Assembly (NCBI GenBank): GCA_950295325.1
Contig: OX485803.1
Coordinates: 71,253,554 to 71,317,553, forward strand
Reading direction: 5' to 3'
Length of the DNA: 64,000 bases
From: Polytrichum commune
Taxonomy: Eukaryota > Streptophyta > Polytrichopsida > Polytrichales > Polytrichaceae
Below are positions 13,621-60,242 of this stretch, piece after piece. Each line of letters opens with the position of its first letter. The stretch's first letter is position 1. Below the pieces are notes generated by a model. It had not been told where the DNA came from, did no database searches, and worked only from the letters and a program-made list of their open reading frames with translations. A program made the translations under genes and the position numbers.

Positions 13621-14649
13621 ACAAAAGTACTGAGTCGTAATCATGATCCGAACGTATAGGCTATATTAACATACATGTAGTTGTGGAATTATGTTTCTAG
13701 GACTTTCGCCTAATATTGGATATTCCACTTGCATTTTGTACTTCAACCCCTATTCAATAAATATGATATTGATTTTCCATATGCAAATGTTTTCATATAT
13801 CCCATTTTCTTATTTTTATGTGTAGTTCCATGCATTTGAGTCTCTTATTTGTTTCCAAAATTGGGAACATAGCATATTTTTAGTGTTTTCCTTCCTACAA
13901 ATGTGAAAGCCACGTCCTTAAATAGTCTCAAAATCAACAAAAAGTGTTCATATATTACCGAATATAGTGTTCATACCTTGACAGAGGGAATGGATACATG
14001 TGGTATTCCATTGACGCAAAAAAATGGTACATTTTTTTACAATGTTGGAGTTAAGAATAAATAAATAAATAAAAACCATTGAGGAAGAATTTGGGAAGTA
14101 TGTACAATTTTGATCAAAAGAGGTCAAAAACATGTCTACGCCAAAATTCCATATGAGCATTAATAGTGAAGAAGGCAACAATTACGCCAAATCAATGTTG
14201 GGCCCCAAAAGAGTAACTGTGTACGTGATTGGAGTGTGTACAACCACCATCGTTGTTTATAGGAGCTTCAAGAGCTAACGTGTACCACATAGTTAGTAAG
14301 AATATTCTTCTTCAAAACTCTAATGTATGCCATACTATACTCAAAGATAACAACTAAGCTTTCCTTTTCATAAATGACGATATATTTCTTGATCCAACAA
14401 CCTACTTTAGATCATTAGAGTGGGTATTTTTGACGTATATATGTATATGTATATGTGTGTGTTTTATGTTTTTGATGACACTAATATAAGATGTTTTTGT
14501 ACCCACAATGTGAGTTAGTAGTAGGTCACACGAGTGATACTATAAATCAATGTAAATGATGGATAAGTATTTGTCAACAAGCATTACGGCCTAGAGAATT
14601 TGTAAAATAGGAGAATTAAGCTAGAACATCCCCAAAATTCAAGATCCCT
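13621..14649. other. AT-rich intergenic DNA, nothing recognised
   Basis: No coding frame, terminal inverted repeat or tandem array is evident beyond short TATATG/TGTGTG runs near 14440-14465. The LRR array begins at its right-hand edge. Confidence 0.6.
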
Positions 14650-15361
14650 CAAAGAAACGAGTTTTCGAAGTCCCTCGGGTATTGTTGTCAAGCTTCAAGA
14701 ATACAAAAATTCAAGCGTTGTCAAAGATAAGAGGTTTCCAAGTCCCTTAGATATTGTTGTCAAGCTTGAACAACTTGACAAATGTAGCTTGATGAAAGAA
14801 GTGAGGTCTCCAAGTCCCTCGGGAAATGTTGTCAAGCTCCAACACATTGACAAATAAAACTCCCTCAAAGAAATGAAATTTGCAGATCCTTTGGGTAATG
14901 TTGTCAAGCTTGAACAATATGACAACTCAAGCTAGATCAAAGAAATGAGGTTTCCAAGTCCTTCGGGTAATGTTGTCAAGCTTGAGCATCCTTCCAAATG
15001 AAGCTTTGTCAAAGAAGTGAGGTTTCCAAGTCCCTCGGGTAATGTTGTCAAGCTTGAGCATCCTCTTAAATCAAGCTCCCTCAAAGAAGTGAGGTTTCCA
15101 AGTCCCTCGGGTAATGTTGTCAAACTTGAGCATCCTCCCAAATAGAGCTCCGTCAAAGAAGTGAGGTTTCCAAGTCCCTCGGGTAATGTTGTCAAGCTTG
15201 AGCATATTCCCAAATAGAGCTCCGTCAAAGAAGTGAGGTTTCCAAGTCCCTCGGGTAATGTTGTCAAGCTTGAGGATATTCTCAAACGAAGCTTTGTCAA
15301 AGAAGTGAGGTTTCCAAGTCCCTCGGGTAATGTAGTCAAGCTTGAGCATCTCCCAAATCGA

Positions 15362-16796
15362 GCTCCATCAAAGAAGTGAGGTTTCCAAGTCCCTCGGGTA
15401 ATGTTGTCAAGCTTGAACAATATGACAAATTAAGCTTGGTAAAAGAAGTGAGGTTTCCAAGTCCCTCGGGTAATGTAGTCAAGCTTGAGCATCGTTCCAA
15501 ATCAAGCTTTGTCAAAGAAGTGAGGTTTCCAAGTCCCTCGGGTAATGTAGTCAAGCTGGACCATTCTTCCAAATTGAGCTCCGTCAAAGAAGTGAGGTTT
15601 CCAAGTCCCTCGGGTAATGTTGTCAAGCTTGAGCATCCTTCCAAATGAAGCTTTGTCAAAGAAGTGAGGTTTCCAAGTCCCTCGGGTAATGTTGTCAAGC
15701 TTGAGCATCCTCTTAAATCAAGCTCCCTCAAAGAAGTGAGGTTTCCAAGTCCCTCGGGTAATGTTGTCAAGCTTGAACAATATGACAAATAGAGCTCCGT
15801 CAAAGAAGTGAGGTTTCCAAGTCCCTCGGGTAATGTAGTCAAGCTTGAGGATATTCTCAAACGAAGCTTTGTCAAAGAAGTGAGGTTTCCAAGTCCCTCG
15901 GGTAATGTTGTCAAGCTTGAGCATCCTCCCAAATAGAGCTCCGTCAAAGAAGTGAGGTTTCCAAGTCCCTCGGGTAATGTTGTCAAGCTTGAACAATATG
16001 ACAAATTAAGCTTGGTAAAAGAAGTGAGGTTTCCAAGTCCCTCGGGTAATGTAGTCAAGCTTGAGGATATTCTCAAACGAAGCTTTGTCAAAGAAGTGAG
16101 GTTTCCAAGTCCCTCGGGTAATGTTGTCAAGCTTGAGCATCCTCCCAAATAGAGCTCCGTCAAAGAAGTGAGGTTTCCAAGTCCCTCGGGTAATGTTGTC
16201 AAGCTTGAACAATATGACAAATTAAGCTTGGTAAAAGAAGTGAGGTTTCCAAGTCCCTCGGGTAATGTAGTCAAGCTTGAGCATCGTTCCAAATCAAGCT
16301 TTGTCAAAGAAGTGAGGTTTCCAAGTCCCTCGGGTAATGTAGTCAAGCTGGACCATTCTTCCAAATTGAGCTCCGTCAAAGAAGTGAGGTTTCCAAGTCC
16401 CTCGGGTAATGTTGTCAAGCTTGAGCATCCTTCCAAATGAAGCTTTGTCAAAGAAGTGAGGTTTCCAAGTCCCTCGGGTAATGTTGTCAAGCTTGAGCAT
16501 CCTCTTAAATCAAGCTCCCTCAAAGAAGTGAGGTTTCCAAGTCCCTCGGGTAATGTTGTCAAGCTTGAACAATATGACAAATAGAGCTCCGTCAAAGAAG
16601 TGAGGTTTCCAAGTCCCTCGGGTAATGTAGTCAAGCTTGAGGATATTCTCAAACGAAGCTTTGTCAAAGAAGTGAGGTTTCCAAGTCCCTCGGGTAATGT
16701 TGTCAAGCTTGAGCATCCTCCCAAATAGAGCTCCGTCAAAGAAGTGAGGTTTCCAAGTCCCTCGGGTAATGTTGTCAAGCTTGAACAATATGACAA
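15362..16796 (-). repeat. Higher-order duplication: 11 units (792 bp), two copies
   Basis: The unit order in 15362-16004 recurs in 16154-16796 at an offset of 792 bp. It includes the rare AAGCTGGACCATTC unit and the GATATTCTC unit. No differences were noticed on reading. Confidence 0.85.
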
Positions 16797-19405
16797 ATTA
16801 AGCTCCGTCAAAGAAGTGAGGTTTCCAAGTCCCTCGGGTAATGTTGTCAAGCTTGAACAATATGACAAATAGAGCTCCGTCAAAGAAGTGAGGTTTCCAA
16901 GTCCCTCGGGTAATGTAGTCAAGCTTGAGCATCGTTCCAAATCAAGCTTTGTCAAAGAAGTGAGGTTTCCAAGTCCCTCGGGTAATGTTGTCAAGCTTGA
17001 GCATCCTCTTAAATCAAGCTCCGTCAAAGAAGTGAGGTTTCCAAGTCCCTCGGGTAATGTTGTCAAGCTTGAACAATATGACAAATTAAGCTCCGTCAAA
17101 GAAGTGAGGTTTCCAAGTCCCTCGGGTAATGTTGTCAAGCTTGAACAATATGACAAATTAAGCTTGGTAAAAGAAGTGAGGTTTCCAAGTCCCTCGGGTA
17201 ATGTAGTCAAGCTTGAGCATCGTTCCAAATCAAGCTTTGTCAAAGAAGTGAGGTTTCCAAGTCCCTCGGGTAATGTAGTCAAGCTGGACCATTCTTCCAA
17301 ATTGAGCTCCGTCAAAGAAGTGAGGTTTCCAAGTCCCTCGGGTAATGTAGTCAAGCTTGAGCATCGTTCCAAATCAAGCTTTGTCAAAGAAGTGAGGTTT
17401 CCAAGTCCCTCGGGTAATGTTGTCAAGCTTGAGCATCCTCTTAAATCAAGCTCCGTCAAAGAAGTGAGGTTTCCAAGTCCCTCGGGTAATGTTGTCAAGC
17501 TTGAGCATCCTCCCAAATAGAGCTCCGTCAAAGAAGTGAGGTTTCCAAGTCCCTCGGGTAATGTTGTCAAGCTTGAACAATATGACAAATTAAGCTCCGT
17601 CAAAGAAGTGAGGTTTCCAAGTCCCTCGGGTAATGTTGTCAAGCTTGAGGATATTCTCAAACGAAGCTTTGTCAAAGAAGTGAGGTTTCCAAGTCCCTCG
17701 GGTAATGTAGTCAAGCTTGAGCATCTCCCAAATCGAGCTCCATCAAAGAAGTGAGGTTTCCAAGTCCCTCGGGTAATGTTGTCAAGCTTGAACAATATGA
17801 CAAATTAAGCTTGGTAAAAGAAGTGAGGTTTCCAAGTCCCTCGGGTAATGTAGTCAAGCTTGAGCATCCTCCCGAATAGAGCTCCGTCAAAGAAGTGAGG
17901 TTTCCAAGTCCCTCGGGTAATGTTGTCAACCTTGAACAATATGACAAATAGAGCTCCGTCAAAGAAGTGAGGTTTCCAAGTCCCTCGGGTAATGTTGTCA
18001 AGCTTGAACAATATGACAAATTAAGCTCCGTCAAAGAAGTGAGGTTTCCAAGTCCCTCGGGTAATGTAGTCAAGCTTGAGGATATTCTCAAACGAAGCTT
18101 TGTCAAAGAAGTGAGGTTTCCAAATCCCTCGGGTAATGTAGTCAAGCTTGAGCATCCTCCCGAATAGAGCTCCGTCAAAGAAGTGAGGTTTCCAAGTCCC
18201 TCGGGTAATGTTGTCAACCTTGAACAATATGACAAATTGAGCTCCGTCAAAGAAGTGAGGTTTCCAAGTCCCTCGGGTAATGTTGTCAAGCTTGAACAAT
18301 ATGACAAATTAAGCTTGGTAAAAGAAGTGAGGTTTCCAAGTCCCTCGGGTAATGTAGTCAAGCTTGAGCATCGTTCCAAATCAAGCTTTGTCAAAGAAGT
18401 GAGGTTTCCAAGTCCCTCGGGTAATGTAGTCAAGCTGGACCATTCTTCCAAATTGAGCTCCGTCAAAGAAGTGAGGTTTCCAAGTCCCTCGGGTAATGTT
18501 GTCAAGCTTGAACAATATGACAAATTAAGCTCCGTCAAAGAAGTGAGGTTTCCAAGTCCCTCGGGTAATGTTGTCAAGCTTGAACAATATGACAAATAGA
18601 GCTCCGTCAAAGAAGTGAGGTTTCCAAGTCCCTCGGGTAATGTTGTCAAGCTTGAACAATATGACAAATAGAGCTCCGTCAAAGAAGTGAGGTTTCCAAA
18701 TCCCTCGGGTAATGTTGTCAAGCTTGAGCATCCTCCCAAATAGAGCTCCGTCAAAGAAGTGAGGTTTCCAAGTCCCTCGGGTAATGTTGTCAACCTTGAA
18801 CAATATGACAAATTGGGCTCCGTCAAAGAAGTGAGGTTTCCAAGTCCCTCGGGTAATGTTGTCAAGCTTGAACAATATGACAAATCAAGCTCCGTCAAAG
18901 AAGTGAGGTTTCCAAGTCCCTCGGGTAATGTAGTCAAGCTTGAGCATCGTTCCAAATCAAGCTTTGTCAAAGAAGTGAGGTTTCCAAGTCCCTCGGGTAA
19001 TGTTGTCAAGCTTGAGCATCCTCTTAAATCAAGCTCCGTCAAAGAAGTGAGGTTTCCAAGTCCCTCGGGTAATGTTGTCAAGCTTGAGCATCCTCTTAAA
19101 TCAAGCTCCCTCAAAGAAGTGAGGTTTCCAAGTCCCTCGGGTAATGTTGTCAAGCTTGAGGATATTCTCAAACGAAGCTTTGTCAAAGAAGTGAGGTTTC
19201 CAAGTCCCTCGGGTAATGTAGTCAAGCTTGAGCATCTCCCAAATCGAGCTCCATCAAAGAAGTGAGGTTTCCAAGTCCCTCGGGTAATGTTGTCAAGCTT
19301 GAACAATATGACAAATTAAGCTTGGTAAAAGAAGTGAGGTTTCCAAGTCCCTCGGGTAATGTAGTCAAGCTTGAGCATCCTCCCGAATAGAGCTCCGTCA
19401 AAGAA

Positions 19406-20614
19406 GTGAGGTTTCCAAGTCCCTCGGGTAATGTTGTCAACCTTGAACAATATGACAAATTGGGCTCCGTCAAAGAAGTGAGGTTTCCAAGTCCCTCGGG
19501 TAATGTTGTCAAGCTTGAACAATATGACAAATCAAGCTCCGTCAAAGAAGTGAGGTTTCCAAGTCCCTCGGGTAATGTAGTCAAGCTTGAGCATCGTTCC
19601 AAATCAAGCTTTGTCAAAGAAGTGAGGTTTCCAAGTCCCTCGGGTAATGTTGTCAAGCTTGAGCATCCTCTTAAATCAAGCTCCGTCAAAGAAGTGAGGT
19701 TTCCAAGTCCCTCGGGTAATGTTGTCAAGCTTGAGCATCCTCTTAAATCAAGCTCCGTCAAAGAAGTGAGGTTTCCAAGTCCCTCGGGTAATGTTGTCAA
19801 GCTTGAACAATATGACAAATTAAGCTCCGTCAAAGAAGTGAGGTTTCCAAGTCCCTCGGGTAATGTTGTCAAGCTTGAACAATATGACAAATAGAGCTCC
19901 GTCAAAGAAGTGAGGTTTCCAAATCCCTCGGGTAATGTTGTCAAGCTTGAACAATATGACAAATAGAGCTCCGTCAAAGAAGTGAGGTTTCCAAATCCCT
20001 CGGGTAATGTTGTCAAGCTTGAACAATATGACAAATAGAGCTCCGTCAAAGAAGTGAGGTTTCCAAATCCCTCAGGTAATGTTGTCAAGCTTGAGCATCC
20101 TCCCAAATAGAGCTCCGTCAAAGAAGTGAGGTTTCCAAGTCCCTCGGGTAATGTTGTCAACCTTGAACAATATGACAAATTGGGCTCCGTCAAAGAAGTG
20201 AGGTTTCCAAGTCCCTCGGGTAATGTTGTCAAGCTTGAACAATATGACAAATCAAGCTCCGTCAAAGAAGTGAGGTTTCCAAGTCCCTCGGGTAATGTAG
20301 TCAAGCTTGAGCATCGTTCCAAATCAAGCTTTGTCAAAGAAGTGAGGTTTCCAAGTCCCTCGGGTAATGTTGTCAAGCTTGAGCATCCTCTTAAATCAAG
20401 CTCCGTCAAAGAAGTGAGGTTTCCAAGTCCCTCGGGTAATGTTGTCAAGCTTGAGCATCCTCTTAAATCAAGCTCCGTCAAAGAAGTGAGGTTTCCAAGT
20501 CCCTCGGGTAATGTTGTCAAGCTTGAACAATATGACAAATTAAGCTCCGTCAAAGAAGTGAGGTTTCCAAGTCCCTCGGGTAATGTTGTCAAGCTTGAAC
20601 AATATGACAAATAG
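19406..20614 (-). repeat. Higher-order duplication: 10 units (720 bp), two copies
   Basis: The block 19406-19894 and the block 20126-20614 have the same unit order, beginning with the rare AAATTGGGCTCC variant. Related starts at 18759 and 21277 show wider shuffling of the same segment. Confidence 0.85.
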
Positions 20615-23600
20615 AGCTCCGTCAAAGAAGTGAGGTTTCCAAATCCCTCGGGTAATGTTGTCAAGCTTGAACAATATGACAAATAGAGCTCCGTCAAAGA
20701 AGTGAGGTTTCCAAGTCCCTCGGGTAATGTTGTCAAGCTTGAACAATATGACAAATAGAGCTCCGTCAAAGAAGTGAGGTTTCCAAGTCCCTCGGGTAAT
20801 GTAGTCAAGCTTGAGCATCGTTCCAAATCAAGCTTTGTCAAAGAAGTGAGGTTTCCAAGTCCCTCGGGTAATGTTGTCAAGCTTGAGCATCCTCTTAAAT
20901 CAAGCTCCGTCAAAGAAGTGAGGTTTCCAAGTCCCTCGGGTAATGTTGTCAAGCTTGAGCATCCTCTTAAATCAAGCTCCGTCAAAGAAGTGAGGTTTCC
21001 AAGTCCCTCGGGTAATGTTGTCAAGCTTGAGGATATTCTCAAACGAAGCTTTGTCAAAGAAGTGAGGTTTCCAAGTCCCTCGGGTAATGTAGTCAAGCTT
21101 GAGCATCTCCCAAATCGAGCTCCATCAAAGAAGTGAGGTTTCCAAGTCCCTCGGGTAATGTTGTCAAGCTTGAACAATATGACAAATTAAGCTTGGTAAA
21201 AGAAGTGAGGTTTCCAAGTCCCTCGGGTAATGTAGTCAAGCTTGAGCATCCTCCCGAATAGAGCTCCGTCAAAGAAGTGAGGTTTCCAAGTCCCTCGGGT
21301 AATGTTGTCAACCTTGAACAATATGACAAATTGGGCTCCGTCAAAGAAGTGAGGTTTCCAAGTCCCTCGGGTAATGTTGTCAAGCTTGAACAATATGACA
21401 AATCAAGCTCCGTCAAAGAAGTGAGGTTTCCAAGTCCCTCGGGTAATGTAGTCAAGCTTGAGCATCGTTCCAAATCAAGCTTTGTCAAAGAAGTGAGGTT
21501 TCCAAGTCCCTCGGGTAATGTTGTCAAGCTTGAGCATCCTTTTAAATCAAGCTCCGTCAAAGAAGTGAGGTTTCCAAGTCCCTCGGGTAATGTTGTCAAG
21601 CTTGAGCATCCTCTTAAATCAAGCTTCGTCAAAGAAGTGAGGTTTCCAAGTCCCTCGGGTAATGTTGTCAAGCTTGAGGATATTCTCAAACGAAGCTTTG
21701 TCAAAGAAGTGAGGTTTCCAAGTCCCTCGGGTAATGTAGTCAAGCTTGAGCATCTCCCAAATCGAGCTCCATCAAAGAAGTGAGGTTTCCAAGTCCCTCG
21801 GGTAATGTTGTTAAGCTTGAACAATATGACAAATTAAGCTTGGTAAAAGAAGTGAGGTTTCCAAGTCCCTCGGGTAATGTAGTCAAGCTTGAGCATCGTT
21901 CCAAATCAAGCTTTGTCAAAGAAGTGAGGTTTCCAAGTCCCTCGGGTAATGTTGTCAAGCTTGAGCATCCTCTTAAATCAAGCTCCGTCAAAGAAGTGAG
22001 GTTTCCAAGTCCCTCGGGTAATGTTGTCAAGCTTGAGCATCCTCTTAAATCAAGCTCCGTCAAAGAAGTGAGGTTTCCAAGTCCCTCGGGTAATGTTGTC
22101 AAGCTTGAGGATATTCTCAAACGAAGCTTTGTCAAAGAAGTGAGGTTTCCAAGTCCCTCGGGTAATGTAGTCAAGCTTGAGCATCTCCCAAATCGAGCTC
22201 CATCAAAGAAGTGAGGTTTCCAAGTCCCTCGGGTAATGTTGTCAAGCTTGAACAATATGACAAATTAAGCTTGGTAAAAGAAGTGAGGTTTCCAAGTCCC
22301 TCGGGTAATGTAGTCAAGCTTGAGCATCGTTCCAAATCAAGCTTTGTCAAAGAAGTGAGGTTTCCAAGTCCCTCGGGTAATGTTGTCAAGCTTGAGCATC
22401 CTCTTAAATCAAGCTCCGTCAAAGAAGTGAGGTTTCCAAGTCCCTCGGGTAATATTGTCAAGCTTGAACAATATGACAAATTAAGCTCCGTCAAAAAAGT
22501 GAGGTTTCCAAGTCCCTCGGGTAATGTAGTCAAGCTTGAGGATATTCTCAAACGAAGCTTTGTCAAAGAAGTGAGGTTTCCAAGTCCCTCGGGTAATGTA
22601 GTCAAGCTTGAGCATCCTCCCGAATAGAGCTCCGTCAAAGAAGTGAGGTTTCCAAGTCCCTCGGGTAATGTTGTCAACCTTGAACAATATGACAAATTGA
22701 GCTCCGTCAAAGAAGTGAGGTTTCCAAGTCCCTCGGGTAATGTTGTCAAGCTTGAACAATATGACAAATTAAGCTCCGTCAAAGAAGTGAGGTTTCCAAG
22801 TCCCTCGGGTAATGTAGTCAAGCTTGAGCATCGTTCCAAATCAAGCTTTGTCAAAGAAGTGAGGTTTCCAAGTCCCTCGGGTAATGTTGTCAAGCTAGAG
22901 CATCCTCTTAAATCAAGCTCCGTCAAAGAAGTGAGGTTTCCAAGTCCCTCGGGTAATGTTGTCAAGCTTGAACAATATGACAAATTAAGCTCCGTCAAAG
23001 AAGTGAGGTTTCCAAGTCCCTCGGGTAATGTAGTCAAGCTTGAGCATCGTTCCAAATCAAGCTTTGTCAAAGAAGTGAGGTTTCCAAGTCCCTCGGGTAA
23101 TGTTGTCAAACTTGAGCATCCTCCCAAATAGAGCTCCGTCAAAGAAGTGAGGTTTCCAAGTCCCTCGGGTAATGTTGTCAAGCTTGAGCATATTCCCAAA
23201 TAGAGCTCCGTCAAAGAAGTGAGGTTTCCAAGTCCCTCGGGTAATGTTGTCAAGCTTGAGGATATTCTCAAACGAAGCTTTGTCAAAGAAGTGAGGTTTC
23301 CAAGTCCCTCGGGTAATGTAGTCAAGCTTGAGCATCTCCCAAATCGAGCTCCATCAAAGAAGTGAGGTTTCCAAGTCCCTCGGGTAATGTTGTCAAGCTT
23401 GAACAATATGACAAATTAAGCTTGGTAAAAGAAGTGAGGTTTCCAAGTCCCTCGGGTAATGTAGTCAAGCTTGAGCATCGTTCCAAATCAAGCTTTGTCA
23501 AAGAAGTGAGGTTTCCAAGTCCCTCGGGTAATGTTGTCAAGCTTGAGCATCCTCCCAAATAGAGCTCCGTCAAAGAAGTGAGGTTTCCAAGTCCCTCGGG

Positions 23601-23929
23601 TAATATTGTCAAGCTTGAACAATATGACAAATTAAGCTCCGTCAAAGAAGTGAGGTTTCCAAGTCCCTCGGGTAATGTTGTCAAGCTTGAACAATATGAC
23701 AAATAGAGCTCCGGCAAAGAAGTGAGGTTTCCAAATCCCTCGGGTAATGTTGTCAACCTTGAACAATATGACAAATTAAGCTCCGTCAAAGAAGTGAGGT
23801 TTCCAAGTCCCTCGGGTAATGTAGTCAAGCTTGAGGATATTCTCAAACGAAGCTTTGTCAAAGAAGTGAGGTTTCCAAATCCCTCGGGTAATGTAGTCAA
23901 GCTTGAGCATCCTCCCGAATAGAGCTCCG

Positions 23930-26900
23930 TCAAAGAAGTGAGGTTTCCAAGTCCCTCAAGCTTGAACAATATGACAAATTAAGCTTGGTAAAAGAAGTAA
24001 GGTTTCCAAGTCCCTCGGGTAATGTAGTCAAGCTTGAGCATCGTTCCAAATCAAGCTTTGTCAAAGAAGTGAGGTTTCCAAGTCCCTCGGGTAATGTTGT
24101 CAAGCTTGAGCATCCTCTTAAATCAAGCTCCGTCAAAGAAGTGAGGTTTCCAAGTCCCTCGGGTAATGTTGTCAAGCTTGAGCATCCTCTTAAATCAAGC
24201 TCCCTCAAAGAAGTGAGGTTTCCAAGTCCCTCGGGTAATGTTGTCAAGCTTGAACAATATGACAAATTAAGCTCCGTCAAAGAAGTGAGGTTTCCAAGTC
24301 CCTCGGGTAATGTAGTCAAGCTTGAGGATATTCTCAAACGAAGCTTTGTCAAAGAAGTGAGGTTTCCAAGTCCCTCGGGTAATGTTGTCAAGCTTGAGCA
24401 TCCTCCCAAATAGAGCTCCGTCAAAGAAGTGAGGTTTCCAAGTCCCTCGGGTAATGTTGTCAAGCTTGAACAATATGACAAATCAAGCTCCGTCAAAGAA
24501 GTGAGGTTTCCAAGTCCCTCGGGTAATGTAGTCAAGCTTGAGCATCGTTCCAAATCAAGCTTTGTCAAAGAAGTGAGGTTTCCAAGTCCCTCGGGTAATG
24601 TTGTCAAGCTTGAGCATCCTCTTAAATCAAGCTCCCTCAAAGAAGTGAGGTTTCCAAGTCCCTCGGGTAATGTTGTCAAGCTTGAACAATATGACAAATA
24701 GAGCTCCGTCAAAGAAGTGAGGTTTCCAAGTCCCTCGGGTAATGTTGTCAAGCTTGAGCATCGTCCCAAATAGAGCTCCGTCAAAGAAGTGAGGTTTCCA
24801 AGTCCCTCGGGTAATGTTGTCAACCTTGAACAATATGACAAATTAAGCTCCGTCAAAGAAGTGAGGTTTCCAAGTCCCTCGGGTAATGTAGTCAAGCTGG
24901 ACCATTCTTCCAAATTGAGCTCCGTCAAAGAAGTGAGGTTTCCAAGTCCCTCGGGTAATGTTGTCAAGCTTGAACAATATGACAAATTAAGCTCCGTCAA
25001 AGAAGTGAGGTTTCCAAGTCCCTCGGGTAATGTTGTCAAGCTTGAACAATATGACAAATTAAGCTCCGTCAAAGAAGTGAGGTTTCCAAGTCCCTCGGGT
25101 AATGTTGTCAAGCTTGAACAATATGACAAATAGAGCTCCGTCAAAGAAGTGAGGTTTCCAAGTCCCTCGGGTAATGTAGTCAAGCTGGACCATTCTTCCA
25201 AATTGAGCTCCGTCAAAGAAGTGAGGTTTCCAAGTCCCTCGGGTAATGTTGTCAACCTTGAACAATATGACAAATTGAGCTCCGTCAAAGAAGTGAGGTT
25301 TCCAAGTCCCTCGGGTAATGTTGTCAAGCTTGAACAATATGACAAATTAAGCTCCGTCAAAGAAGTGAGGTTTCCAAGTCCCTCGGGTAATGTAGTCAAG
25401 CTTGAGCATCCTCCCGAATAGAGCTCCGTCAAAGAAGTGAGGTTTCCAAGTCCCTCGGGTAATGTTGTCAACCTTGAACAATATGACAAATTGAGCTCCG
25501 TCAAAGAAGTGAGGTTTCCAAGTCCCTCGGGTAATGTTGTCAAGCTTGAACAATATGACAAATAGAGCTCCGTCAAAGAAGTGAGGTTTCCAAATCCCTC
25601 GGGTAATGTTGTCAAGCTTGAGCATCCTCCCAAATAGAGCTCCGTCAAAGAAGTGAGGTTTCCAAGTCCCTCGGGTAATGTTGTCAACCTTGAACATCTC
25701 TCAAGATGAAGTGTCGTCAAGGAAGTCAAGTTTCCAAGTCCCTCATCCAATGCTTCAAGCATTTTGAGTCCCTCTAAATCGAAGGTTTCCAATGAACGCA
25801 ATTCCCATAGTTGCTGAGGCAATTGTTGAGAGATACCATTGATAAATATGGCCTTCAATTGACATGAATGTTCTTGAACTTGTGAAAGAAGAACTTTGAA
25901 TAATTGGAAGTCGGTTGATGCATTGGTCACATGATCATGAATTGACAATAGTCGAAGGTTGCTTAGATCCAAATCTAAATAATAATCTAGATGACACCGT
26001 GATCTTTTATATAATATACCTTCCACTTTATTGGTTCCCTGCTTTGCAAGATGTACAAATCATATCAAAACGTAAAGATTATTAATAAAGTCATTGCAAA
26101 ATGATGGAATAAAGTATGCCATTGCAAAGACTAAAGAAGAATCTAAATTAATTATGAATATCTTGACCGTCATAAACATGAAATTAACCGTCAAATAAAA
26201 TCTAAATCAAATTGCACATTTGGTTTGTATAAACTTTACAAAGGTTACGTGGAACAAGCATTGTCATACAAATCGTTCGTATCAATTCATACCTTGCTTG
26301 TAGATTGAGTTGAAGGAATTGAGTCAACACTCCAAACTCGAGTGCCCAAGTAGTCTTCATCCCTTTCCACAATCATTCGTCCCATGTCACGTAGTTGGTC
26401 GTGCATTTCTATGTTATTATCTCTATCAACATTTACCAATGATCCCTCTATCAACACTTTGAACGATTCTATTTGCGGGATACCTTTAATGGTCCACACG
26501 TGCAAGGCTCTACCTATTGACATGCCTTCAGGGCAAATGTCCTTGCAAAAGAAGCACGCTATGTCCAAAAACATATTTTTTTCATGCATTCCCAATCCAT
26601 CAAAGCTTATTCTCAATGTGCTCCAAAGTTTCGTGTCTTCAAATTCTTCTTTGTCACCATCCAAACATCTTCCCCTATTAATTCTTTGTAATGCTCGCTC
26701 CCAGCTTCGCAACCTCCATTTATCCCGCAAAAATGCACCCAATACTCTTAGGCTTAAAGGCAAACCAGTGCAAGCATTCACTATTCTTCCTCCTATATCA
26801 CAAAATTCAACTGGTAAAGAACCTCTGATCCCACATGAATGATGGATAAAAAGCTCCTTTGCTGCATTTTCATCCAATGTGTCCACGTCAATTTTGCCCT

Positions 26901-29192
26901 TCTCTTCGACACGGTCTTTAATCTTGTCCCAATTGCGGGTTGTTATAATCAATGTGATGCCCGCATTGTCACTCAAAATATCCCGATGAAGAAGAGTATC
27001 TAGTTGACCTTGATCCTTGATATCATCCAATATTATGAGAACCTTCTTACCAACCATAAATTGCTTCAACATGGTTTGGGCATCCACCAAATTTGTTGGG
27101 AGGCTTTCACGATCTTCTCCAAAGTCTATTAACATGTCACATAAAATCTCAAGGGAATGACTCTTATTCTTCAAGTCTTTGGCAAAACATGATGCATTGT
27201 ATGAAAACTTCAATTCATCAAATACGGCATTTGCCAATGTAGTCTTCCCAATTCCACCCATGCCAATGAGACCCAAAATCCTCACTTCCTTGAGGCGATC
27301 CTTGACTTTTGTAAGGCTTCGTTGACGACCAACCACCATGTTGTTCATTTGCTTTGTTGTTTCCTTCACCTACATAAACAATGCATGCAATTAGAACCTA
27401 CTTTTGATTCAAATTACATCCTCAACGACCTACATTTTAATCCAAATAAATAGAAATGACAAACTATCCATATGAAAATAGTTTTTATTAGGCATTTGAA
27501 CACCAAAACGGTTCGCACCTCTATGATAGGTTTCTCTTTGACCTCCTTTGCCTTCTCAACTCTTGAGTTCCTTTGGAGCAAGGCTCCATCCTTTTCGAAC
27601 TTGGGACATAGGGTTGCCGAGTATGTTCCTCTCAAAAACATTTTCTTCAAAGCTATCAATTTTTCACAAATTTCAAAAAATGTCGGCCTTTGTAAAGGAT
27701 CCTCCACCCAACATTCCTCAATCAACCTCGTAAGCTCTTCACAATTCATTGGCAATTCTGGCCTCTCAAATTTCTCAACTTTTCCCAAAACGTGATTGCG
27801 GTTCACGGGATTGCTCCCAAACGGAGCAGTTTGTGACAAGATCTCTGAACATGTCATAGCAAAGGACCATACATCAGCATGAAATAGACTTGCATGAGAT
27901 TCAAGGTTTTTTTGGATTATCTCCGGTGCCATATACTTAATTGTACCAACACGATCGCAAGTTTGTTTCTTGAGAATTTTGCTTTGAACCTCAGTTTTGG
28001 AAGTGCCATAGTCAGCCAACTTGACCAAAAATTGGCTAAAATTCAAATTTCCTCCTTTAATGGAATCGGATTTCATGAGCACATTGTCCGGCTTTAAATC
28101 AAGATGGGCAACATGCATGTCATGAAGATAACACATGCCACATGCAATTTGATGCATGATATCAATTGCAACAAGATATGATAACGGTTTAGATCGCTTC
28201 TTCAACATGCCACTCAAGCTCATGTCCATGAACTCCATCACCAAATACAAATTTTCAAGATTTTGGCCATTTCCTCCTTTGCATTTCCGTAAAACTTTGA
28301 GAGGCCAAGAACATAACTCGTCTATGCTCCCACCCACTCCACAATAAATGAATTTGATGAGATTTGGATGGCTCAAGCCTGCTAGAATACCGATCTCTTT
28401 GCGACAATTTGGCTCTTGCAAAATCTTTGTTGCACATTGAAAGCCGAACCATAATGATTCATAGACCGCACCACATGCTCCTTTCCCAATCATTTTAAGA
28501 AGCTTTGGTTTCAATGAATCAATGACATTCGGAACCTCCACACTATCGAGCTCTCCACCTTCTAGTTGCGAGTCCCGCAATCTTCGCTGTAAATATCCTC
28601 TCAATTCATCGTTGCTATCATCCTTAAGAGTTTCTTGAAGAACCTTTTCATCGTGCTCAATCTCTTTCAAGGTGGGCATGTCAAGTTTAATGGTAAACCT
28701 CGAAGGATGCAACCCTGGATGGCTTGCTGAATGCATCTCATATATCACATCCCAACACCACCTCAAATCGGACACAAGTTCTCGAAAAGCCTCTTTGTTA
28801 TTTATTTGCAATGCAATTGCTCGACACCGATTTTGATTCCCGCATTCACGCACCACAACTCCCATTCTTTGTGTAATGCGACATAGCTCCTCAAGTGCAA
28901 CACCAAGCTCTTGCACCTCACTACTCAATGTGACAATCTCACCAACACATTCTACAACTTTGTTAAGCTGGGTGAGAAGATTTTTACATTGCTTCTTATT
29001 CAATACTTCATTTCCATTCAAAATCTCTTCAAGTGTACGTATTTCTTCCTTTTGCCATTGCAATAAACCTCCAATGTCATATTCGTAAATGGATCCTCTT
29101 TGTCGATATGTCCAAAACATCATAAAGCAAGTGCCAATAAAATCCCAAAACCTTGATAGTTGCTCAAAAAACAATTGTAAAAGCTTCGCCAT
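23930..29192 (-). CDS. Kinase-NB-ARC-LRR immune receptor (PNL class)
   Basis: Three exons join in phase 0 and give 1,619 residues: 29192-27519, 27369-26293 and 26038-23930 (donors GTGCGA and GTATGA). Residues 1-200 are a helical N-terminal region. The kinase lies at about 230-520: glycine loop IGKGACGAVY (235), Lys256, HLDLKPDN (363-370), DYG (394-396) and MAPE (421). It lacks the Arg before the catalytic Asp (non-RD) and has DYG for DFG. NB-ARC spans 559-917: P-loop GMGGIGKTT, LIILDD, TGLPLSL, MFLDIACFF (TIR-receptor-like) and MHD at 880. A linker leads to 25 LRRs of 24 residues. A 13-bp deletion at about 23957 then produces LRDLETSLL and stop. The expected role is intracellular pathogen sensing with kinase output. 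Nearly all variation between LRRs lies in the exposed segment. Function is inferred from family. Confidence 0.9.
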
Positions 29193-58835: not shown

Positions 58836-60215
58836 TCAAGGGCGAGTATCAAACCTCGGCTTAAACACGAAGCCGCCTAAGATATCCTCTACATCACCGA
58901 AACTCGCACTGATCCTCGGCAAAACACTCCACTTCTGCGACGACTTTTCATACATCACCAGCTGATGCGGCTCCAGATCCTCCCACTGCGGTGCGAAGTG
59001 CAACGGCTCGGTCCCAAGCAACAATACAACCTCCTCTGTCAGAAACAAGGAGGTTTTCTCATACATCCTTAAGACCTTAGGAAACGCACAAACCTTACAC
59101 CACTCCACCTCCAGCCGCTGCCATATCCCTTCCTTCCTCGGCGCATTACAGCACATGAACAAGCTCCCTTTGCTCTCCATAATCCAGCACTTATCCCCCT
59201 CACACAACTGCTCCAAGCACGACCTCGGTTGCAGCGCCGGCGGGTACATCAACCTCCGGATGCGGTTCGTGTTCGTGTCTATGGTGGCTAACCCTTTGTA
59301 ATCCTCGCCCTCGAACAGCTGGTAGTAAGAAAACAGCTGCGGAGGTTTCTCCGCCTGGACCCACGTATCGCTCCCGGAATCGTAGACCTCGATCACCAAA
59401 CCTCCGTCGGATGTTTCCGACCTCCCTACCAATGTGATGCAATACCTCGATGTTGACTTCGCCGAAGCAGCTTCCACCGTCACCATCGCCATGTGCACGA
59501 GGTCGGGGAACTCGCATAAGGTTAAAGTTGGAGGAAGCTGCCGCCATGTCTGCGTCATAGGGTTGCATATGAGAAGCTCCAGGCGAGAATCAGGAGCTTG
59601 ATTAGGATCTTTAGCGTAGCAGAGTAATCCTCCTGCGGTTGCGAACGGGCCTCGAAGCTCGAGGACATCATCACGTGAGCAGTTTGATGATGTTGATGAT
59701 GATGAGCTTGGAAATGGCCAAGTTGATCCAATGTGGAACTTACACCATTCGTGTGTGCGAGAGTCTAGTAACCAAACCTCCTGCTGCGAGAAAGGGATCT
59801 CGGGGTTGTGATGACGTTTCTTCTTCACCAGAGCGAACTGTGAAGCTCCCTGGTGTGTTGTGTTGTTGGAGAGGAAGTCTGTGCAGTTCCAGTGTTTGTT
59901 GAGTGAGCGCAGGCGAATGGTGCTCTTGATTGGTAACCTGGAGAAGATGAGATGGAGCACGCTCTCAGGCATCTCGCTCCAAATGACAGGGTTAAGACGC
60001 TCCGATTCTTCTTCTTCATCGTCTGCATCATCTTCTTCTTCATCGCCATATTGAGGATAAAAGGAATTGTATCCTTGGTTGTTGGATGTAGAGGGCAGCT
60101 GGTTACCATGTACTGCTGCGATGGTTGGATCAACTCCTTCCGGAAATATATTCCGAAAGTTCTGTTGCAAGTGTGCCAACGGAGTCGGCATGGCGCCTCT
60201 CATCCTAACTTCCAT
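58836..60215 (-). CDS. F-box protein (FBX6/kelch-type), single exon
   Basis: A single exon of 459 residues from ATG at 60215, with an in-frame stop upstream. Residues 58-71 are an acidic run. The F-box spans about 75-112: NPVIWSEMPESVLHLIFSRL, then RLRSLNKHWN. The C-terminal part has beta-propeller-like segments: EVWLLDSRTHEWCKF, LLICNPMTQTWRQLP, IEVYDSGSDTWVQ and LVMYEKSSQKWSVLP. The spacing suits a kelch-like substrate domain. It should act as an SCF E3 ligase adaptor that docks to SKP1 and presents a substrate for ubiquitination; the substrate is unknown. The architecture resembles the plant FBX6/LCR group, but orthology was not established. No frame damage is seen, so it is probably functional. 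Confidence 0.85.
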   Translation of the reverse strand: MEVRMRGAMPTPLAHLQQNFRNIFPEGVDPTIAAVHGNQLPSTSNNQGYNSFYPQYGDEEEDDADDEEEESERLNPVIWSEMPESVLHLIFSRLPIKSTIRLRSLNKHWNCTDFLSNNTTHQGASQFALVKKKRHHNPEIPFSQQEVWLLDSRTHEWCKFHIGSTWPFPSSSSSTSSNCSRDDVLELRGPFATAGGLLCYAKDPNQAPDSRLELLICNPMTQTWRQLPPTLTLCEFPDLVHMAMVTVEAASAKSTSRYCITLVGRSETSDGGLVIEVYDSGSDTWVQAEKPPQLFSYYQLFEGEDYKGLATIDTNTNRIRRLMYPPALQPRSCLEQLCEGDKCWIMESKGSLFMCCNAPRKEGIWQRLEVEWCKVCAFPKVLRMYEKTSLFLTEEVVLLLGTEPLHFAPQWEDLEPHQLVMYEKSSQKWSVLPRISASFGDVEDILGGFVFKPRFDTRP

Positions 60216-60242
60216 CCTCTCACTCAAGCGCTCTCTGTCTTA

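Follow-up and report, generated by a model that had tools for sequence, protein, structure and literature searches.

A predicted kinase-NB-ARC-LRR gene of Polytrichum commune with a minisatellite-like LRR domain and a long out-of-frame tail

We analysed 64,000 nucleotides of the Polytrichum commune genome (GenBank assembly GCA_950295325.1, contig OX485803.1, positions 71,253,554 to 71,317,553 of the forward strand; hereafter the window), the minus strand of which carries a predicted kinase-NB-ARC-leucine-rich repeat (LRR) gene at 29192-23930. The last exon of this gene opens a long array of near-identical 72-bp LRR units, of which the first 25 are in frame and the rest lie beyond the stop; we refer to the gene with its in-frame units as the head and to the units past the stop as the tail. 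The locus is probably a member of the PNL class (PK-NBS-LRR; protein kinase, nucleotide-binding site, LRR) of nucleotide-binding LRR receptors (NLRs) whose LRR domain is a coding minisatellite, in which distal breaks of the frame leave a drifting, non-coding tail, here still fresh and with an incidental potential as a donor of LRRs. Units have been duplicated in blocks within the array, head and tail draw on a common pool of units, the arrays of related loci in the same genome break towards their distal ends, and pairs of relatives combine the same head with different arrays.

The predicted gene and its LRR array

The predicted product is 1619 amino acids (aa) long. Its spliced model (558 + 359 + 702 codons) starts at an ATG at 29192 and has a single terminal stop with no internal stop or frameshift, in keeping with the original prediction, made from the letters of the window, of an intact kinase-NB-ARC-LRR head. 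Pfam matched the protein kinase domain (Pkinase, 1.1e-39) on 27556-29192, NB-ARC (8.7e-29) and the winged helix WHD_ROQ1 (1.6e-09) both on 26293-27366, and LRR_14 (8.2e-84), so that the LRR domain follows NB-ARC. The P-loop, kinase-2, GLPL and MHD patterns were all found in exon 2, and the gene matched all eight of the kinase and NB-ARC motif patterns applied, which are strict. We infer that the gene is expressed and functions as a receptor.

Tandem Repeats Finder (TRF) reported the repeats as a single 72-bp array at 14631-25744 with a score of up to 15,699. Parsing of the units gave 154 anchors, all on the minus strand, confirming the earlier estimate of about 150 units running in one orientation from the last exon. 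Spacings are 72 bp in 144 cases, 71 bp in seven, and 59 bp and 144 bp once each, the 144-bp spacing concealing one degenerate unit. The LRR exon stays open up to and including unit 25, whose loss of 13 bp leads to the stop at 23930. Beyond the stop lie 129 anchored units and the hidden one; the earlier count of 25 units in frame and 125-130 outside it was right, as was the ATG at 29192.

The 59-bp unit and the seven 71-bp units change the frame. They split the array into nine LRR-framed blocks, of which the first is the head and the other eight make up the tail, and open reading frames (ORFs) of 171-819 aa persist in the tail's own LRR frame. Besides the first 71-bp unit (Table 1) there are six others, beginning at 22230, 21799, 21152, 19281, 17770 and 15395. 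The 72-bp unit that comes next is of one type in every case, and the seven 71-bp units are identical both in sequence and in the 100 bp of context after them. Their likeliest history is one deletion spread through block duplication; the tail therefore went on duplicating after it had lost the frame. Long ORFs also cross the array on the plus strand (16888-17520, 18759-19265 and others); these are probably a by-product of the codon make-up of the repeat and were not counted as genes.

The longest exact multi-unit repeats measure 645, 609 and 559 bp, every one of them between two places in the tail. Exact tracts of at least 150 bp were found in 0/276 head-head, 77/3000 head-tail and 287/7750 tail-tail unit pairs, and tracts of at least 300 bp in no head-head pair, 0/3000 head-tail pairs and 69/7750 tail-tail pairs, these counts being descriptive as unit pairs are non-independent. 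The newest duplications are located in the tail, and the head is quieter. For window units, the nearest neighbour belongs to the same locus with a frequency of 0.97, where chance would give 0.12, and exact copies of 22 of the 24 full head units occur in the window's own tail. Differentiation between head and tail (an Fst-like measure) is 0.002, ranking 42 among 119 contiguous blocks, as is to be found within one pool. The 145 window units compared differ on average at 8.2 positions per 72 bp, which places them above about 80% identity within the gene.

Variation between units is concentrated at a few positions. Over 827 pre-break units of 21 arrays, drawn from the window and from the related loci described below, entropy peaks at unit positions 11, 13, 15 and 16, and the head and tail of the window have the same profile as each other, with maxima at 13, 15 and 16. 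AlphaFold2, run on the single sequence of the LRR exon, gives a regular solenoid (mean predicted local distance difference test score 84.3) with strands at positions 11-15, so that the variable positions lie in the strand or adjoin it. The strand side is the concave face in LRR proteins in general, and by LRR geometry the variable positions are likely to be exposed; by analogy with other plant NLRs, this face may be the one that binds ligand. Foldseek and sequence searches of the PDB returned many LRR proteins of varied kinds, the NLRs RPP1 and ROQ1 being among the sequence matches, and no special relative.

Arrays of related loci

Elsewhere in the genome, eleven loci match the NB-ARC exon closely, at 80-93% amino-acid identity; in one of these, L010, a stop interrupts the exon. 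The matches listed also include at least 22 further full-length relatives at 76-79%. The LRR side was taken for all eleven close relatives and for ten of the 22 others; L019 was dropped, no array being present in the 8 kb taken. This gave 21 arrays including the window, of 20 to 212 units, each followed until a gap exceeded 400 bp. Frameshifts or stops, one or more per array, interrupt eighteen of the 21. In these the first break falls at a mean relative position of 0.64, against 0.22 expected at random (0/20,000 simulations), or 0.67 against 0.23 with the window left out (n = 17), and the polarity also holds when L009 and L010 are left out together with the window. Summed over the 21 arrays, the first ten units contain 1 break and the last ten contain 51 (210 units each).

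Outside the window, core leucines are violated in 36/803 pre-break units and 66/285 post-break units (p = 7e-18). Among singleton changes outside the variable codons, again without the window, replacement and silent ones number 142 and 82 in pre-break units and 237 and 78 in post-break units (p = 0.004), a ratio of about 2.6:1 being expected if all changes are equally likely. Both tests count the units of unbroken arrays as pre-break, and the p-values are rough as units within an array are non-independent. The proximal LRRs thus look as if they were kept and the distal ones released, with selection as the presumed cause of the polarity.

The tail of the window is less decayed than the other tails (core-leucine violations in 10/121 units against 66/285, p = 2.7e-4). 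In the other 17 broken arrays the tail holds exact copies of 10/544 head units, eight of these in L009. These comparisons suggest that most tails in this family are dead and decaying remnants of an array that changes fast. The window looks like an unusually fresh case, in which tail and working part might still exchange units; a recent break is the simplest reading of the likeness between its head and tail.

The longest array belongs to a locus on contig C3 (L016/L022; C3:12189900-12207899, minus strand) and consists of 212 units, each 72 bp apart, with a frame open for 5224 aa and exact internal repeats of up to 2186 bp. Its NB-ARC is 78% identical to that of the window and its kinase exon is interrupted by a single in-frame stop; if this is a true working gene, its LRR domain would be larger than any NLR repeat domain known to us.

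Arrays differ between related loci within the one genome examined, in some cases behind identical heads. L008 and L009 have zero mismatches in 3011 bp of kinase, intron and NB-ARC, an identity that extends 439 bp upstream and, downstream, through LRR units 1-9. The arrays then differ, still having in common one identical 12-unit block, which is shifted, and a few single units, and the flanks are about 98% identical on both sides. The pair (with L030/L031 and L035/L036) looks like the product of a recent conversion or exchange that covered about 4.7 kb and ended inside the LRRs, and the finding of different arrays behind identical heads means that recombination inside these arrays is real. Two more pairs were compared over the 578-585 bp preceding the array. 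L037 and L039 have no mismatch in 585 bp, a first mismatch in unit 7 and a shifted identical block of 23 units; L042 and L043 are identical before the array, with a first mismatch at unit 4. L037, L038 and L039 lie together on contig C6 (6.27-6.42 Mb) as three copies identical over 585 bp before the array, and 54 of the 56 L038 units are exact and in place in L039 (3 mismatches over 4614 aligned bp), after which the two diverge; L038/L039 is not a further case of the pattern. L040/L041, considered as a further pair with identical heads, was rejected on seven mismatches before the array.

By head, the closest relative of the window is L001 (97.4% identity). The 3′ flank of the window has no match of at least 100 bp with L001, whereas L003, L008 and L009 match it. 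Exact tracts of at least 140 bp link different loci six times among the 21 arrays; none of the six (0/6) connects a silent tail to an in-frame stretch, and wide exchange between loci appears unsupported by these six tracts except for L008/L009 and L013/L014.

Origin of the tail and alternative explanations

In the explanation that we favour, out-of-register exchange between near-identical 72-bp units would duplicate, delete and reorder them, and this turnover would alter the receptor surface, mainly at four positions that lie in each unit's strand or beside it. Selection would preserve the frame in the proximal part only, so that after a distal frameshift the gene would still work with fewer LRRs, leaving the remainder as a non-coding, drifting tail. 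The break in the window would be recent, its tail nearly intact and still churning, with one 71-bp frameshift unit copied to seven places. Recombination of a head unit with a tail unit would immediately add new in-frame LRRs. It is through exchange in unit register that the tail could serve as an incidental, short-lived donor: such exchange keeps the LRR frame up to the next frame-changing unit, and the capacity for donation therefore exists. The 77 possible unit-register joins at exact homology of at least 150 bp would yield 10-51 in-frame LRRs (median 27). Germline unequal exchange suffices to explain the array of the window.

The original prediction had proposed that the tail could donate LRRs to the head by unequal crossing-over or gene conversion. 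This is borne out in part, as block duplication, the single pool of units, the exact head-tail tracts and the three pairs of relatives with the same head and different arrays are all in its favour; transfer from the silent tail into the window head is possible, and may have taken place since the break. That the tail is kept as a reservoir was not supported, as set out below.

Several results weigh against the favoured explanation. Comparison of the window head with its relatives gives ratios of nonsynonymous to synonymous change (dN/dS) of 0.48-1.11 and no clear purifying selection, the values for L002 and L003 being doubtful as exon 1 is shorter or broken there; some copies may have lost the constraint on kinase and NB-ARC, or it may be weak or masked by diversification. 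Four of the 13 heads taken (L002, L003, L010 and L016) have a broken or shortened exon 1, and all eight motif patterns, strict as they are, were matched in three of the 13 (the window, L006 and L011). Within the window itself the core-leucine contrast between head and tail is not significant (1/24 against 10/121, p = 0.69). The polarity of the breaks could come partly from uneven recombination along the arrays instead of selection. Finally, no exchange between the head and tail of the window could be dated and no transfer after the frameshift was demonstrated.

The dN/dS values and the damaged first exons of relatives would also fit a pseudogene, the whole locus decaying and its head intact merely through youth. 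We regard this as unlikely, given that the window retains all the kinase and NB-ARC patterns tested in a head with neither stop nor frameshift, and that proximal LRRs appear protected family-wide. A silent reservoir, in which selection maintains the tail as a supply of LRR cassettes delivered by conversion or crossing-over, much as in antigenic variation, would account for the exact tail copies of nearly all full head units, for the presence of 150-bp tracts in head-tail pairs and their absence from head-head pairs, and for the milder decay of the window tail. A recent break accounts for the head-tail sharing as well, however, and the exact tracts of at least 300 bp are solely tail-tail, the newest copying having bypassed the head. 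Elsewhere in the family, broken arrays share few units between head and tail, their tails decay as a group, and no cross-locus tract leads from a silent to a live stretch. The ratio of changes in the related tails looks neutral, the data of the window tail being too few to judge by themselves. Such a reservoir is quite unlikely, and the decay of tails at related loci led us to reject it as the principal explanation. Also improbable is a working donor of a more active kind, in which in-register exchange would repeatedly move tail blocks into the head, the 71-bp unit acting as a modular stop, so that one locus would produce receptors of 10-51 LRRs with altered concave surfaces every few generations.

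Eleven kilobases of near-identical repeats are difficult to assemble, and array length or frameshifts might be consensus errors. Against this, the seven 71-bp units are identical, as is the sequence after each, which is unlike random error and was our reason for rejecting assembly noise as the principal explanation; the genome is moreover assembled as 408 Mb in 64 contigs, the longer 212-unit array keeps an even spacing throughout, and breaks are polarised along the arrays. An artefact is thus very unlikely. The long open blocks of the tail and the relative that is open across 212 units might suggest instead that frameshifting or splicing bypasses the broken units to give a giant LRR protein. 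This would take eight separate frame corrections, there are stops in the distal units, and the window tail, counted with its degenerate distal units, has 12 replacement and 2 silent singleton changes. On the frame changes and this ratio, decoding of the tail was set aside as the principal explanation and seems scarcely credible.

Relation to known receptors and other features of the window

The number of LRRs changes through intragenic recombination by unequal exchange in NLRs of angiosperms, flax L/M and RPP5 for example; those cases involve a few large repeats, whereas the window holds a 154-unit minisatellite. In the variable lymphocyte receptors (VLRs) of lampreys and in silent-cassette antigenic variation, a store of variant modules can feed an expressed copy, as the tail might do here. 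The parallel with lamprey VLRs drawn in the original prediction is loose, as no sign was seen here of somatic assembly or of a dedicated donor-acceptor mechanism.

Closer likenesses are found in moss PNL genes, in which, according to the quoted part of their description, phase-0 introns separate the kinase from the NBS and the NBS from the LRR (Xue et al. 2012, PMC3352924). In Nicotiana benthamiana, the response to a kinase domain from Physcomitrium was modest and varied (PMC11218826). The window gene resembles this class in its N-terminal kinase domain followed by NB-ARC and then LRRs, in its predicted GT-AG, phase-0 introns at both junctions and in belonging to a large family. It differs from what that part of the description covers in that LRR minisatellites of 20-212 near-identical units, with out-of-frame tails, are present here.

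In mechanism the nearest system appears to be the HNWD/NWD NLRs of Podospora anserina, whose near-identical tandem sensor repeats turn over by unequal exchange and conversion, some copies having stops or frameshifts, as far as the cited excerpts go (PMC12222747, PMC2873952, PMC4986451). The limitation of variation to a few positions, presumably exposed by LRR geometry, is a trait that the window has in common with these genes of high internal conservation. The Podospora genes are fungal and their repeats are of the WD40 type, 10-12 in the het-e alleles quoted; those of the window are by Pfam LRRs, set in a plant kinase-NLR, with 25 in frame (212 in a relative) and a long out-of-frame tail. Such conservation is given as rare in Viridiplantae (0.4%) in a count of ANK, TPR and WD repeats, to which LRRs do not belong (excerpt of PMC4986451). 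Our survey of titles and abstract openings in the open literature, with subscription journals mostly outside its reach, found no report of such arrays in a moss NLR among the papers listed.

The locus would be a plant counterpart to the fungal NLRs of high internal conservation, with a recognition surface encoded by a minisatellite that runs to tens or hundreds of near-identical LRRs and with live and dead stretches adjoining in one array. The family makes it testable how fast an NLR surface changes by recombination, how many LRRs are needed and whether dead repeats return.

Table 1 Predicted gene parts, array segments and 3′ flank of the locus in window coordinates
Feature	Coordinates	Strand	Basis
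Predicted exon 1, 558 codons: N-terminal region and protein kinase domain	27519..29192	-	Pfam, motif patterns, splice model
Predicted intron 1, 149 bp, GT-AG, phase 0	27370..27518	-	Splice model
Predicted exon 2, 359 codons: NB-ARC and ROQ1-like winged helix	26293..27369	-	Pfam, motif patterns, splice model
Predicted intron 2, 254 bp, GT-AG, phase 0	26039..26292	-	Splice model
Predicted exon 3, 702 codons and stop: pre-LRR region and 25 in-frame LRR units	23930..26038	-	ORF, Pfam LRR families, unit parse, AlphaFold2 model
Unit 25, 59 bp, with the 13-bp deletion terminating the LRR frame	23958..24016	-	Unit parse
Silent tail, units 26-150: conserved LRR units past the stop, in blocks split by 71-bp units	14965..23957	-	ORFs, unit parse, exact repeats
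First of seven identical 71-bp frameshift units	23311..23381	-	Unit parse
Five degenerate distal units with two stops (anchors 151 and 153); terminus common to L003, L008 and L009	14605..14964	-	93% nucleotide identity to L009 over 396 bp
3′ flank common to L003 (two pieces), L008 and L009	13972..14604	-	Sequence comparison

Elsewhere in the window, a plus-strand ORF of 239 aa at 11960-12679 matches the NLI interacting factor-like phosphatases (Pfam NIF, 1e-11), and a minus-strand ORF of 463 aa at 58836-60227 has an F-box and a sub-threshold match to the KIB1-4 beta-propeller. A separate tandem repeat at 1490-1913 consists of five near-perfect copies of an 85-bp unit (96% matches by TRF).

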